Source: an uncultured Spirochaetota bacterium (GTDB taxonomy: Bacteria > Spirochaetota > Spirochaetia > Treponematales > UBA12059). From it: DNA of 61,590 nt. Each line of letters opens with the position of its first letter. Positions within the stretch are counted from its first letter, which is position 1. Below are positions 42,642 to 60,313 of this stretch, piece after piece. The stretch spans positions 1-61,590 of the forward strand of contig CALMRC010000104.1 in assembly GCA_937873275.1 (NCBI GenBank). Direction: 5' to 3'. The position numbers and the translations under genes were made by a program. The notes below the pieces were generated by a model. That model made no database searches, was not told where the DNA came from, and saw only the letters and a list, made by a program, of their open reading frames with translations.

Positions 42642-42756
42642 GGTGGACGGTGGACAGTGGTCGGAAACGAAGCGACCGTACGGTCGAAGCTACTCGCTAC
42701 AGCGTTGTCTCCAACCGTTTAGATACCTGTCTTCTGTCCACCGTCCACCGTTCACC
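42642..42756. repeat. heptamer-arm structured element
   Basis: Left arm GGTGGAC GGTGGAC AGTGGTC GGAA (42642-42666). Right arm (42734-42756) read on the minus strand: GGTGAAC GGTGGAC GGTGGAC AG. Sixteen bases of the arms are perfect inverted repeats. The core has the palindrome CGACCGTACGGTCG (42673-42686), a CGC-TACA-GCG hairpin followed by TTGTCTCC, and ACGGT/ACCGT that can close around it. The osmC stop TGA (42752-42754) is inside the outermost GGTGAAC. The rest of the gap to fusA (42445-42641) shows nothing else I recognise. Confidence 0.8.
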
Positions 42757-56729: not shown

Positions 56730-57362
56730 ATGAACAAGAGAGTTTTCGCGGCGATCGCGATTCTCACGGTCGCGGCCGCGGGCGCCTTCGCGCAGATAGG
56801 CCTGGGGCTCAACGCCGCCATCTACTCGGACACGAAGATGAGCATGAGCGAGTTCTCGAGCCGGCTGCGGGAGGGCGAGGGCGTCTTCTACGGCCCCTTC
56901 ATCGAGCTGGCCCTGGGCAAGACCGCCCTGGGACTCGCGGGGAACTTCTCCTTCTACGAGGAAGACTGGTCCTACGCCCAGGACGGATCATTCCCAGTCC
57001 CAATGGTCGACTTCGACCTCACCCTCTATGCCCAGGGCCATCTGATCAAGTACCGGGCCTTCCTGGACCCCTTCCTGGAGGCGGGCCTGGGGGTCATGGG
57101 CAAGGACTATGCGAGTGATGATCCGTCGGTAGATCCTGACCCGGACAATCCCATCATGGCCACCACCTACTTCCAGGCGGGCGGCGGACTCGGGCTCAAT
57201 TTCGGGGGCCTGGGGATCTTCATCAAGGGCCTCTACCTCTTCCCGCTCGGGACGGTGGAGGGTACCTACTACGACGAATTCGGGGCTCCCCAGACCTATG
57301 ACCTGGCCACCTATCCCCTCCGCCGCCTCAAGCTGATCGCGGGGGCGAAGATTATTCTGTAG
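56730..57362 (+). CDS. small outer-membrane beta-barrel protein
   Basis: A 210-aa exported protein: signal peptide residues 1-21 (cleavage at AFA|QI), then alternating polar/hydrophobic strands ending in aromatic residues, with the final strand LRRLKLIAGAKIIL typical of barrels recognised by BamA. It probably forms an eight-strand barrel in the outer membrane; no specific family is recognised. AGGAGG precedes the ATG. The 300-nt region shared with the divergent PEGA gene contains both promoters and a T8 run at about 56622. Its TAG stop is only two bases from the first GGTGGAC heptamer array. Confidence 0.78.
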   Translation: MNKRVFAAIAILTVAAAGAFAQIGLGLNAAIYSDTKMSMSEFSSRLREGEGVFYGPFIELALGKTALGLAGNFSFYEEDWSYAQDGSFPVPMVDFDLTLYAQGHLIKYRAFLDPFLEAGLGVMGKDYASDDPSVDPDPDNPIMATTYFQAGGGLGLNFGGLGIFIKGLYLFPLGTVEGTYYDEFGAPQTYDLATYPLRRLKLIAGAKIIL

Positions 57363-57364
57363 AC

Positions 57365-57578
57365 GGTGGACGGTGGACAGTAAGCGGAAGTAGGTTTCCG
57401 TATGAGGCCGCTGAACACGCTTAGGCGTGGGAGGCGGCCTTTTCTGTGGTCGGTGGACAGTGGACTGTGGACAGGAGTAGGCTCCCGTGCAGGGCTGGCG
57501 AACACGGATTGGCGGTAGCTCGGCCGCGGAGTGGGCTCACTTCCGACCACTGTTCACTGTCCACTGTCCACTGTCCAC
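57365..57578. repeat. compound heptamer-arm element (two related cores)
   Basis: The left array (57365-57390) reads GGTGGAC GGTGGAC AGTAAGC GGAAG; a second left array at 57452-57474 reads GGTGGAC AGTGGAC TGTGGAC AG. The right array (57545-57578) read in reverse is four GGTGGAC-type units plus GGTC. The two cores align without gaps over about 40 nt and each opens with a TAGG-loop hairpin (GGAAG/TTTCC in the first, GGAG/CTCC in the second). They share GAACACG then GGCG, and GGCCGC/GCGGCC closes the first around CACGC-TTAG-GCGTG. The first core ends in TTTTCT and could terminate transcription. Confidence 0.8.
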
Positions 57579-57619
57579 CCCAACGCAAGCATTTGCCGGT
57601 TTCTCGGCGGTATCCCGGC

Positions 57620-57991
57620 ATGGAAACAACGTCTGTTCAACGGCTGGAAGCCTACAAGCAAGCCCACGCGATAACAGTTAGCCTCTATCGAAGAACCGGA
57701 AAATTTCCACCGACAGAGCGATATGGTTTGTCATCCCAAATCCGGAGGGCGTCGAGCTCCATGGGGGCGAACCTCCTGGAAGGTTCACATCGGGGATCCA
57801 GGACGGAGTTCGCCCGATTCGTATGCATAGCCCGGGGATCCTGCGCTGAACTCAAATACCACCTGCTGTTGTCACGGGATCTATCATATATAGACGAGAA
57901 GGAATATTCATTCTATCTCGAAAAACTGGACAAAATCTCCGCCTTGCTGTATGGGTTGTTCAGGTCGTTGTCGGTGAGCAGTAAACGGTGA
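57620..57991 (+). CDS. four-helix-bundle protein (S23/IVP family)
   Basis: A 123-aa, all-helical protein matching the S23/IVP (23S rRNA intervening-sequence) family. The recognisable pattern is LEAYKQAHAITVSLYRRTGKFP near the start, YGLSSQIRRASSSMGANLLEG in helix 2 and FARFVCIARGSCAELKYHLL in helix 3 (each in part). The family is related to the Avd accessory protein of diversity-generating retroelements and often binds nucleic acid. Here it is not within rRNA. The gene has visibly lower G+C than its neighbours, and heptamer arrays lie on both sides; its last six codons (SVSSKR) and TGA are written in the right-hand array. It was probably acquired with the repeats. Confidence 0.88.
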   Translation: METTSVQRLEAYKQAHAITVSLYRRTGKFPPTERYGLSSQIRRASSSMGANLLEGSHRGSRTEFARFVCIARGSCAELKYHLLLSRDLSYIDEKEYSFYLEKLDKISALLYGLFRSLSVSSKR

Positions 57992-58092
57992 ACGGAAGGA
58001 GGCCGCAGCGGGCGGCCGCCAGCCACAGTTGGCCTAGAATCCGACCGACGTATTGTGTCACTTCCGTCCACTGTCCACCGGCCACTGTCCAC
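57973..58092. repeat. heptamer-arm element downstream of the four-helix-bundle gene
   Basis: The left array GGTGAGC AGTAAAC GGTGAAC GGAAG (57973-57998) overlaps the end of the four-helix-bundle gene and contains its TGA stop. The right array (58061-58092) read in reverse is GTGGACA GTGGCCG GTGGACA GTGGACG GAAG. The core has GGCCGC-AGCGG-GCGGCC. Together with the 57365 array it brackets the gene with inverted arms. The right end stops just before the IclR ribosome site. Confidence 0.78.
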
Positions 58093-58105
58093 TAGGAGTT
58101 CCCGT

Positions 58106-58852
58106 ATGCCCTCTACGAGCATCGAAAAATCGGTCCTCATCCTCAAGCAGCTGGCCGTGCCGCCCTACGAGTACAAGGCCGGGGAGCTGGCCCGGAAGCT
58201 GGGGATGAACCGGTCCTCGGTCTACCGGATCCTCCAGGTCCTGAAGGACTGCGACCTGGTGATCTCCGACAAGGGCGGGGACTACTACAAGGTGGGCCCG
58301 GAGATGTACCACATCGGGACCACCTACCTGTACAACAACAACTTCCACTCGAAGCTCATCGATATCCTCTCGGAGATCTCGGACATCATCAAGGAATCCG
58401 TGGGCATGGCGGTGATGGACGGGGACAAGATCATGTCCCTGATCGAGATCGAGGTCCACCAGCCCATGAAGCTGAACGACGTGCCGGGACGGTACTACCC
58501 TCCCAACAAGGGCAACTACGGGAAGGTCCTCATGGCCTACCAGGACCCGGAGTACATCGAGCGGACCCTCTCCGGCCGGGTCTTCGAGAAGACCTTCTAC
58601 AATACCCTGACCACCAAGGAAGAGCTCCTGGCGGAATACGCCCGGATCCGGGACCGGGGCTACTCCTTCAGCGTGGACGAGCTCGGGATCGACATCCTGG
58701 GGGTCGGGATCCCCATATTCGGCGAGGGCGGCCGGATCAAGGCCTGCGTAGCCGTGGGCTTCTACCGCAGCGAGGGCTGGGAGGACAAGCTCCACCGGGT
58801 CAAGGACATCCTCCTGGGCTATCAGAACCAGATCGCGCGCAACATGCCTTAG
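58106..58852 (+). CDS. IclR-family transcription regulator
   Basis: A 248-aa DNA-binding regulator. A winged helix-turn-helix occupies about residues 5-65 (AGELARKLGMNRSSVYRILQVL), and the C-terminal effector domain shows GKVLMAYQDPEYIERTL and DRGYSFSVDELGIDILGVGIPI, typical of IclR. It probably controls the adjacent kdd operon, repressing or activating in response to a catabolic intermediate. The ATG at 58106 follows TAGGAG, which abuts the repeat element, so its transcript may start inside or upstream of the repeat. Confidence 0.9.
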   Translation: MPSTSIEKSVLILKQLAVPPYEYKAGELARKLGMNRSSVYRILQVLKDCDLVISDKGGDYYKVGPEMYHIGTTYLYNNNFHSKLIDILSEISDIIKESVGMAVMDGDKIMSLIEIEVHQPMKLNDVPGRYYPPNKGNYGKVLMAYQDPEYIERTLSGRVFEKTFYNTLTTKEELLAEYARIRDRGYSFSVDELGIDILGVGIPIFGEGGRIKACVAVGFYRSEGWEDKLHRVKDILLGYQNQIARNMP

Positions 58853-59131: not shown

Positions 59132-60172
59132 ATGAGCCTTGGGTGCAAGTACGGTACGCACCGGGTGATCGAACCGGTCGGTGCGATGCCCCAGACCGCG
59201 CAGAAGATCAACAACGACATGTCCGTCCTCTACGACAACGAGATCCTGGTGGACGTGATCGCCCTGAACGTCGACTCCGCCAGCTTTACCCAGATCGAGC
59301 AGGAAGCGGGCGGGGACGTGCAGAAGATCGGCGCCAAGATCCTGGAAATCGTCGCGGCCCGGGGCAAGCAGCAGAACCCCGTCACGGGTTCCGGCGGGAT
59401 GCTCATCGGCAAGGTGGCCAAGATCGGCTCGGCCCTGAAGGACCGGGACCTGAAGGTGGGCGACAAGATCGCCTCCCTGGTGTCCCTTTCCCTGACCCCC
59501 CTGAAGATCAACAAGATCCTCAAGGTCCACCCGGAGATCGACCGGGTCGAGATCGACGGGCAGGCCATCCTCTTCGAGAGCGGAATCTACGCCAAGCTTC
59601 CGGCGGACATGGACGAGGGCCTGGCCCTGGCGGCTCTGGACGTGGCGGGCGCCCCGGCCCAGGCGGCCAAGCTGGTGAAGCCCGGGGACTCGGTGCTGGT
59701 CCTGGGCGCGGGCGGCAAGTCCGGCCTCCTTTGCCTCTACGAGTCCATCAAGCGCGCGGGCCCCACGGGCCGCGTCGTGGCCAACATCCACTCCGAGCGC
59801 TCCCGGAAGGTCATCCAGGACCTCAAGCTGGCCCACGAGATCGTGGTCGGGGACGCCACCAAACCCGTGGAGTTGATGAACGCGGTCCTCAAGGCGAACA
59901 AGGGCCGGGAGTTCGACATCGCCATCACCTGCGTGAACATCGCGGGCTGCGAGATGGCCAGCATCCTCCCGGTCCGGGACGGCGGCACGGTCTACTTCTT
60001 CAGCATGGCCACCAGCTTCACCCGGGCCGCCCTGGGGGCCGAGGGGATCGGCAAGGACGTGAACATGATTATCGGCAACGGCTACACCAAGGACCACGCC
60101 GAGATCACCCTCTGGGAGCTCCGGGAAAACCCGGCGCTGAGGAAAGTATTCGAAGAGAACTACGTTAAGTGA
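59132..60172 (+). CDS. kdd: L-erythro-3,5-diaminohexanoate dehydrogenase
   Basis: A 346-aa cytoplasmic NAD-dependent dehydrogenase of the lysine fermentation pathway, which oxidises 3,5-diaminohexanoate to 3-keto-5-aminohexanoate. The start MSLGCKYGTHRVIEPVGAMP, the central VLVLGAGGKSGLLC nucleotide-binding motif (about residue 189) and the C-terminal MIIGNGYTKDHAEITLWELR segment are characteristic of Kdd; its length is also usual. AAAGGAGG precedes the ATG. It is downstream of an IclR regulator and upstream of an aminotransferase; the mutases and cleavage enzyme expected in the pathway must lie outside the window. Its TGA stop is the start of a GTGAATA array. Confidence 0.93.
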   Translation: MSLGCKYGTHRVIEPVGAMPQTAQKINNDMSVLYDNEILVDVIALNVDSASFTQIEQEAGGDVQKIGAKILEIVAARGKQQNPVTGSGGMLIGKVAKIGSALKDRDLKVGDKIASLVSLSLTPLKINKILKVHPEIDRVEIDGQAILFESGIYAKLPADMDEGLALAALDVAGAPAQAAKLVKPGDSVLVLGAGGKSGLLCLYESIKRAGPTGRVVANIHSERSRKVIQDLKLAHEIVVGDATKPVELMNAVLKANKGREFDIAITCVNIAGCEMASILPVRDGGTVYFFSMATSFTRAALGAEGIGKDVNMIIGNGYTKDHAEITLWELRENPALRKVFEENYVK

Positions 60173-60298
60173 ATAGGTGAATAGTGAATGGGTGAATAGA
60201 GGCGATTCGAGAGTCGCGGCCGTATCCCACGCAATAGCGTAGTCTCCGGCCGCTTCCTTAGCCATCCTATTCACTTATTCACCCATTCACCAATTCAC
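60169..60298. repeat. GTGAATA-type heptamer-arm element between kdd and the aminotransferase gene
   Basis: Left arm: four GTGAATA/G units, 60169-60198, spaced 7-8 nt, the first containing the kdd stop TGA (60170-60172). Right arm: four TATTCAC-type units, 60268-60298; GTGAATGGGTGAATA (60184-60198) has a perfect partner at 60276-60290. The core has GCGATTC/GAGTCGC and GCGGCCG (60216-60222) / CGGCCGC (60247-60253) closing around ACGC-AATA-GCGT, followed by AGTCTCC. The 3' end stops 4 nt before the AAGGAG of the next gene, so the element is a complete intercistronic insert. Confidence 0.85.
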
Positions 60299-60313
60299 CC
60301 ACAAGGAGCCACC

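Follow-up and report, generated by a model that had tools for sequence, protein, structure and literature searches.

The S23 gene and its inverted heptamer arrays

The window, the whole stretch of 61,590 nucleotides that we analysed, is contig C104 of a 3.6-Mb genome in 200 contigs (G000). A gene at 57620–57991 on the + strand encodes a protein of 123 amino acids, which we assign to the S23/IVP family because its profile scores exceed the curated cut-offs (PF05635, 113.2 bits against 33.8, E = 8.5e-33; TIGR02436, 104.8 bits against 24) and because it has the S23-type four-helix-bundle fold of 2GSC. The neighbouring genes, both on the + strand and used here as site markers, encode an outer-membrane-like protein on the left (56730–57362) and an IclR-type regulator on the right (58106–58852). 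Between them, the S23 gene is flanked by inverted arrays of the heptamer GTGGACN, spanning 57359 to 58093.

The element is modular, with a left half-module followed by a complete inverted pair, the S23 gene, and a second inverted pair. The outer left array (57359–57379, + strand) begins where the upstream gene ends, at its stop codon, and consists of the degenerate unit GTAGACG followed by GTGGACG and GTGGACA; the rest of the half-module (57380–57445, + strand), compared with the gene-less consensus given below, contains an inner palindrome, GCCGC...ACACGCTTAGGCGTG...GCGGC. The complete module at 57446–57579 consists of a + array (57453–57473) and a − array (57552–57579) and resembles the dispersed gene-less copies. 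In the right module (57981–58093), the first + units (57981–57994) encode the C-terminal codons of S23, AGC AGT AAA CGG, and the stop TGA, and the last − array (58066–58093) closes the element. The S23 gene has a G+C content of 0.511, the window one of 0.670, and only 0.65% of 372-bp windows are equally low. Runs of at least three units occur five times in the window, compared with a mean of 0.0 in 30 order-2 Markov simulations. An earlier note on this DNA had described a gene of low G+C between arrays of opposite orientation that make up its last codons and stop, and each of these points is confirmed in the window sequence.

Like insertion sequences and MITEs, the window element has terminal inverted repeats, although these are periodic rather than unique in sequence. 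PF05635 is the only domain in the element, and no recognised transposase was found in it. Rfam gave no match in the window at gathering thresholds, hence no rRNA, and only chance miRNA matches at relaxed thresholds, and PADLOC matched nothing. The copy is intergenic and is not a 23S rRNA intervening sequence.

Gene-less copies and genome-specific expansion of the units

The pattern GTGGACNGTGGACN has 110 matches throughout the G000 genome, against one for the reversed control pattern. Many of these matches are gene-free inverted pairs about 90–115 bp apart, such as the MITE-like copy with the GTGGACN unit at 42643–42756 of the window. An alignment of 26 such copies gave the arrangement (GTGGACN)3-4 GGAAGTGA ... 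CGG ... CGCTNNAGCG ... CCG ... TCACTTCC (GTCCACN)3-4. Single copies fold as one long, interrupted, imperfect hairpin with a mean z of only −0.83, which argues little for structure beyond the arrays; RNAalifold recovered the array stem and nothing further from the 26 copies, because their inner parts are too diverged for alignment.

A second unit family in G000, GTGAATN, has 15 matches, among them the gene-less copy at 60169–60299 of the window, whose first unit provides the TGA stop of a dehydrogenase-like gene. Three S23 genes are present in G000, and each adjoins a different repeat type: besides the window gene, one copy (L003) has GTGAATN repeats and a reading frame broken by TAA at codon 12, and another (L005) has GGATGAA-type repeats that are clear on one side. 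GTGGACN matches number 110, 24, and 55 in the three genomes of the genus (g1), and at most two in 56 other genomes; GTGAGGN has 118 matches in genome G023, where the S23 gene is flanked by GTGAGGG, and none in 11 other genomes. Judged from these counts, the unit that flanks an S23 gene has expanded in a genome-specific manner. The genome with 55 GTGGACN matches (G002) yielded no S23 gene; its assembly is fragmented, and the absence may reflect gene loss or this fragmentation.

Inverted arrays at S23 genes in about 20 phyla

We surveyed 80 S23 loci from a collection with one genome per species, picked by the protein only, of which 78 were testable; as the best matches to the query, they may over-represent one branch of PF05635, and distant members may differ. 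In the 250 bp on either side of the S23 domain, inverted matches were scored at a threshold of at least 12 and the best tandem period was determined for each side. Inverted arrays accompanied 65 of the 78 S23 genes, from about 20 phyla, compared with 18 of 254 other ORFs of the same loci (Fisher p = 6e-39) and 23 of 533 random positions. The best period was 7 on both sides in 58/78 S23 genes, against 14/254 control ORFs and 15/533 random positions. The architecture seen in the window is therefore established, at the level of sequence, in about 20 phyla, and S23 genes elsewhere do have such arrays, contrary to one of the outcomes that the earlier note named as refuting. The unit sequence differs in almost every element (GTAATCA, AGCCGGA, CAGCGAT, TCGGTTA, and others) and the period stays at about 7. 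The G-rich strand is usual in the 5' array (skew above 0 in 42/51), the 3' array is C-rich, and in 17 of 54 cases the 3' array reaches into the end of the S23 gene.

In a second sample, drawn from viral contigs, inverted arrays were found at 20 of 22 S23 genes, with period 7 on both sides in 16 and mostly period 8 in the others. A search of phage records for S23 found none. Among 12 Avd genes above the NCBIfam cut-off, none had period 7 on both sides; therefore, the arrays accompany S23 and not its retroelement cousin Avd. A run of about 300 bp of alternating GGTGACA and GGGAACA heptamers lies upstream of S23 in Anabaena sp. 90 (L241, 2600–2900), so the arrays are capable of strong one-sided expansion.

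Occupied, gene-less, and empty sites

One insertion lies in a conjugation operon of cyanobacterial plasmids. Inside this operon, an S23 element with units of the TCAGAAT type is present in plasmid C of Trichormus variabilis and in a plasmid of Scytonema, while the same site is bare in plasmids of Aulosira, Tolypothrix, and Nostoc carneum (97–98% identity). The empty site reads AAAAAGTAATTAACAAATAA and the occupied site reads AAAAAGTAAT[AAATCAGAATTC...S23...GAGTTCTTCTTT]GTAATTAACAAATAA, with an exact 5-bp target duplication, GTAAT. At the same GTAAT site, a truncated copy is found in Nostoc C052 and a gene-less copy with a related unit in Brasilonema. In Nostoc ATCC 53789, S23 occupies one gap of an operon in plasmid pNsp_a and another gap of that operon in pNsp_c, so that each provides the empty site of the other; their comparison gives an exact target duplication, TTCTA, and that of pNsp_c with C052_B gives a near-exact one, TAATG/TTATG. 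A site at the TraM gene exists in all three states: C057 has the empty site, C052 a full one, and pNsp_c a gene-less (MITE) one. The target duplications, two exact and one mismatched, are 5 bp long, short duplications being a feature of insertion sequences and MITEs as well, and all are at related elements; the junctions at L122, L144, and in Calothrix are too diverged for a target duplication to be read. Comparison of sequences thus documents occupied, MITE, and empty versions with 5-bp duplications, and bears out the idea in the earlier note that gene and arrays form one mobile unit, as do the arrays at 65 of the 78 S23 genes; the other refuting outcome named in the note, a lack of empty sites in close relatives, likewise did not occur. 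The insertions lie in gaps beside stop codons, and at least one, described below, lies in 23S rRNA.

Picosynechococcus PCC 7003 has S23 between cmr2 and cmr3, and PCC 7002 lacks S23 there. S23 elements occur within cyanobacterial CRISPR operons, in the orders cas6-S23-cas4 (type I-D) and cas10-S23-cmr3 (type III-B) (L241, L240); S23 is probably an insertion in these operons and not a CRISPR component. In G000, TATAC stands on both sides of a gene-less element (L116, 1440–1620), and G001 has TATACTATAC without an element at this place (L281, 195–220); the latter is what a precise excision would leave as a footprint, but it could also be an ancestral repeat, and is ambiguous.

Repeated use of the same gaps in sister species

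In the sister species G001, the same neighbour genes as in the window enclose a different S23 element with GTGAATN arrays. The right flank is 94.5% identical to that of the window and the left flank 81%. The G001 element is 82% identical over 654 bp to the G000 element on contig C4, but only a 137-bp stretch of it can be aligned with the window S23 gene, at 67%. No clean empty sister site was found for the window S23 copy. We located 15 gene-less G000 sites in G001, where arrays are absent from 5 and present in 10. Two of the 10 occupied sites carry the same array family as in G000 and eight a different one (GTGAATN in six, a nonamer of the CACGGAG type in one, and another heptamer in one; L118, L119, L126, L133, L137, L140, L143, and L146). 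The site at 60169–60299 of the window holds three different array families in G000, G001, and G002. Orthologous gaps are used repeatedly, as if sites were re-used or elements replaced one another, and the presence of different families at one spot in G000 and G001 goes beyond what a simple insertion model explains.

One gene-less GTGAATN element (L150 in G000, L288 in G001) is 100% identical together with its flanks, compared with differences of several percent at other flanks, and may have been transferred recently or be strongly conserved. In other genera of the family, the intergenic region downstream of the dehydrogenase-like gene contains, at a distance of about 350 bp, a conserved sequence that looks structured, GGCGAGCCGG...GGGGGCAGTCCG...CCCCGGGGGCTCCCCGTCCCCGGCGCGG (L083–L090); array elements take its place in the genus of the window. 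A reading of this sequence as a riboswitch was dropped, as Rfam gave no match.

The S23 protein and its relation to Avd

S23 proteins were crystallised in 2006–2007 with no function assigned. The AlphaFold2 model of the window protein has a mean pLDDT of 94.6, and Foldseek ranked 2GSC first (TM 0.89), then 2RLD, and then Avd (4DWL), with no transposase among the matches. An alignment of 79 S23 proteins shows no variation at Y23, N51, E54, S74, or E77 and hardly any at E33; the stretch from Q40 to S47 is also invariant or nearly so, a value biased by its having belonged to the search pattern. The conserved residues may make up an active site or a network with a structural role.

The kinship of S23 with Avd of diversity-generating retroelements (DGRs), named in the earlier note, is upheld by the shared pentameric four-helix-bundle fold (4DWL) and by a weak match to the Avd profile NF033474. 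However, this match, at 21 bits, stays below the cut-off of 80, so the window protein does not classify as a DGR Avd, and aligned Avd sequences do not retain N51, E54, and S74. In addition, true Avd genes lack the arrays, and the S23 element contains no RT, TR, or VR. No RVT_1 gene was found anywhere in G000 or G001, so that a nearby reverse transcriptase, as in a DGR, is absent.

rRNA intervening sequences and known repeat families

An insertion of the same architecture was found inside a full-length 23S rRNA match on plasmid AZO_p2 of Azospirillum lipoferum (L242), where an S23 frame is accompanied by inverted heptamers GGACGGATGACAGAGGAC / GTCCTCTGTCTTCTGTCATCC. The 23S intervening sequence of Coxiella burnetii is reported to have an S23p ORF within terminal inverted repeats, a terminal stem of 28 bp, and GACAGAT heptamers in tandem (PMC4990558), and so shares S23 ORF, heptamers, and inverted ends with the S23 elements; earlier authors cited in the same paper suspected the rRNA intervening sequence to be a transposition remnant. 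The Azospirillum and Coxiella heptamers together make insertion of an S23 element the simplest account, and S23-coding rRNA intervening sequences look like insertions of this single-gene element. The Coxiella system differs in being described only as an rRNA insertion, whereas the window copy is intergenic, has gene-less relatives throughout its genome, and belongs to a class that spans about 20 phyla and varies in its units.

G-rich heptameric repeats are known from Xanthomonas and Nostoc (PMC4692102) and TAACTGA repeats from Beggiatoaceae (PMC4679880). These are likewise dispersed intergenic heptamer arrays, with 70 inverted pairs in Xcc, and the Xcc genome has both heptamer repeats and an S23 protein, XCC0516 (2GSC). 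S23 is unmentioned in both papers, and no general association of the Xanthomonas and Nostoc repeats with mobile elements was found (PMC4692102). Each of the three, heptamer repeats, S23 proteins, and rRNA intervening sequences, is known already, but among the open-licence papers searched we found none that joins them or that connects S23 with heptamer arrays in general. Compared with insertion sequences and MITEs, the S23 elements share inverted termini, short target duplications, and non-autonomous gene-free copies, but their termini are periodic arrays of variable units, and no domain of a transposase or recombinase is recognised in their only gene. A further resemblance is to REP/BIME repeats with RAYT (TnpA-REP), in which dispersed palindromic repeats also go with one cognate protein gene; unlike the S23 elements, REPs are not 7-bp arrays, and RAYT is a Y1 nuclease. 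No known element matches the architecture of the S23 element.

Proposed mechanism and alternative explanations

We favour, and consider probable, the reading that this segment is one member of a widespread family of insertion elements that have a single gene and whose S23 protein acts on its own heptamer ends. From the sequence comparisons, the S23 gene and the inverted arrays very probably constitute mobile units; that S23 is the mobility factor of its element is fairly likely, and that S23 itself cuts DNA is doubtful. Insertion at the DNA level is indicated by the empty sites, the 5-bp duplications, and the gene-less derivatives. We propose that S23 recognises the arrays and directs insertion because it is the sole gene of the element and the arrays expand with it. 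As a homologue of the pentameric 2GSC and Avd, S23 would bind the repeat ends of its own family, in the form of duplex arrays or of long hairpins folded from them, bring these ends together, and direct insertion through a 5-bp staggered break; either S23 itself or a nuclease or recombinase of the host would do the cutting. The conserved period and free unit sequence suggest recognition of repeat spacing or structure, and the unit would co-evolve with its S23. The known rRNA intervening sequences would be copies that had inserted into helix 45 of 23S rRNA. This reading is tempered by the apparent lack of a recognised catalytic domain in S23 and of a transposase among the structural matches of its model.

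The same lack of a catalytic motif speaks for a rather unlikely alternative, in which host replication or repair, or an unrelated transposase acting in trans, moves and amplifies the arrays and S23 is cargo or an RNA-binding partner that rides along without driving the movement. The gene-less copies are indeed far more numerous than the S23 copies, G002 retains many arrays with S23 undetected, and one G000 S23 copy is a pseudogene. However, it would be unexpected for cargo to come from a single family across about 20 phyla whose units differ independently, and a unit has expanded only where the genome, or a congener, holds an S23 gene with that unit. We regard as quite improbable a retrotransposition, one of the routes considered in the earlier note, in which the reverse transcriptase is supplied in trans and a transcript hairpin and S23 act in a manner similar to Avd in DGRs. 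The fold and weak profile similarity shared with Avd and the ability of the element transcript to form a hairpin agree with it, but a search of 12 genomes found no RVT_1 gene in 10, including G000, G001 (98% complete), and seven other S23-bearing genomes, some of them complete, which makes a retro mechanism unlikely, and the array-free Avd genes and the 5-bp target duplications also stand against it. The least probable explanation, that the arrays are selected regulatory or transcript-end hairpins with S23 as their RNA-binding regulator, draws on their placement beside stop codons, their hairpin potential, and the report that for 90% of the Xcc repeats the enclosing ORFs are the same in Xac (PMC4692102), but conflicts with the precise empty sites and the target duplications seen among close relatives, the lineage-specific expansions, and the insertions into 23S rRNA and conjugation operons.

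The insertion-element reading offers a common explanation for the function of S23, the origin of S23-coding 23S intervening sequences, and the over-representation of heptamers in many bacteria; it connects several repeat families that had no explanation and suggests a so far undescribed route of DNA movement. If S23 drives the movement, it would differ from every known fold class of transposition proteins, the ends of its element being set by periodicity and not by fixed sequence, and would bear on how Avd joined reverse transcriptases. More tentatively, S23 proteins could be a new class of DNA-mobility proteins, a pentameric four-helix bundle with an invariant polar set of E33, N51, E54, S74, and E77 that reads the spacing or structure of heptamer arrays and mobilises its own element and MITEs across bacteria, in which rRNA intervening sequences would be special cases, Avd would have lost the role, and a superclass would unite the class with the nonamer elements of GxxExxY genes.

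A candidate parallel nonamer family

At 30 loci of GxxExxY genes (PF13366, PDDEXK-like) from the same phylum (L251–L280), we found inverted arrays with a period of 9, for example CACAGAGGACACAGAG. The best period was 9 upstream in 16/30 and downstream in 14/30, and 19/30 had an inverted score of at least 12. A search for PF13366 genes found none in G000; G001 and G002 carry nonamer arrays, and in both genomes nonamer array elements occupy gaps common to the heptamer family. As a lead from these sequences, GxxExxY genes with nonamer arrays are a candidate second family of single-gene elements with periodic ends. Nonamer arrays of the CACAGAGNA type are also seen at GxxExxY genes in L081 (4640–4770) and L082 (680–870).
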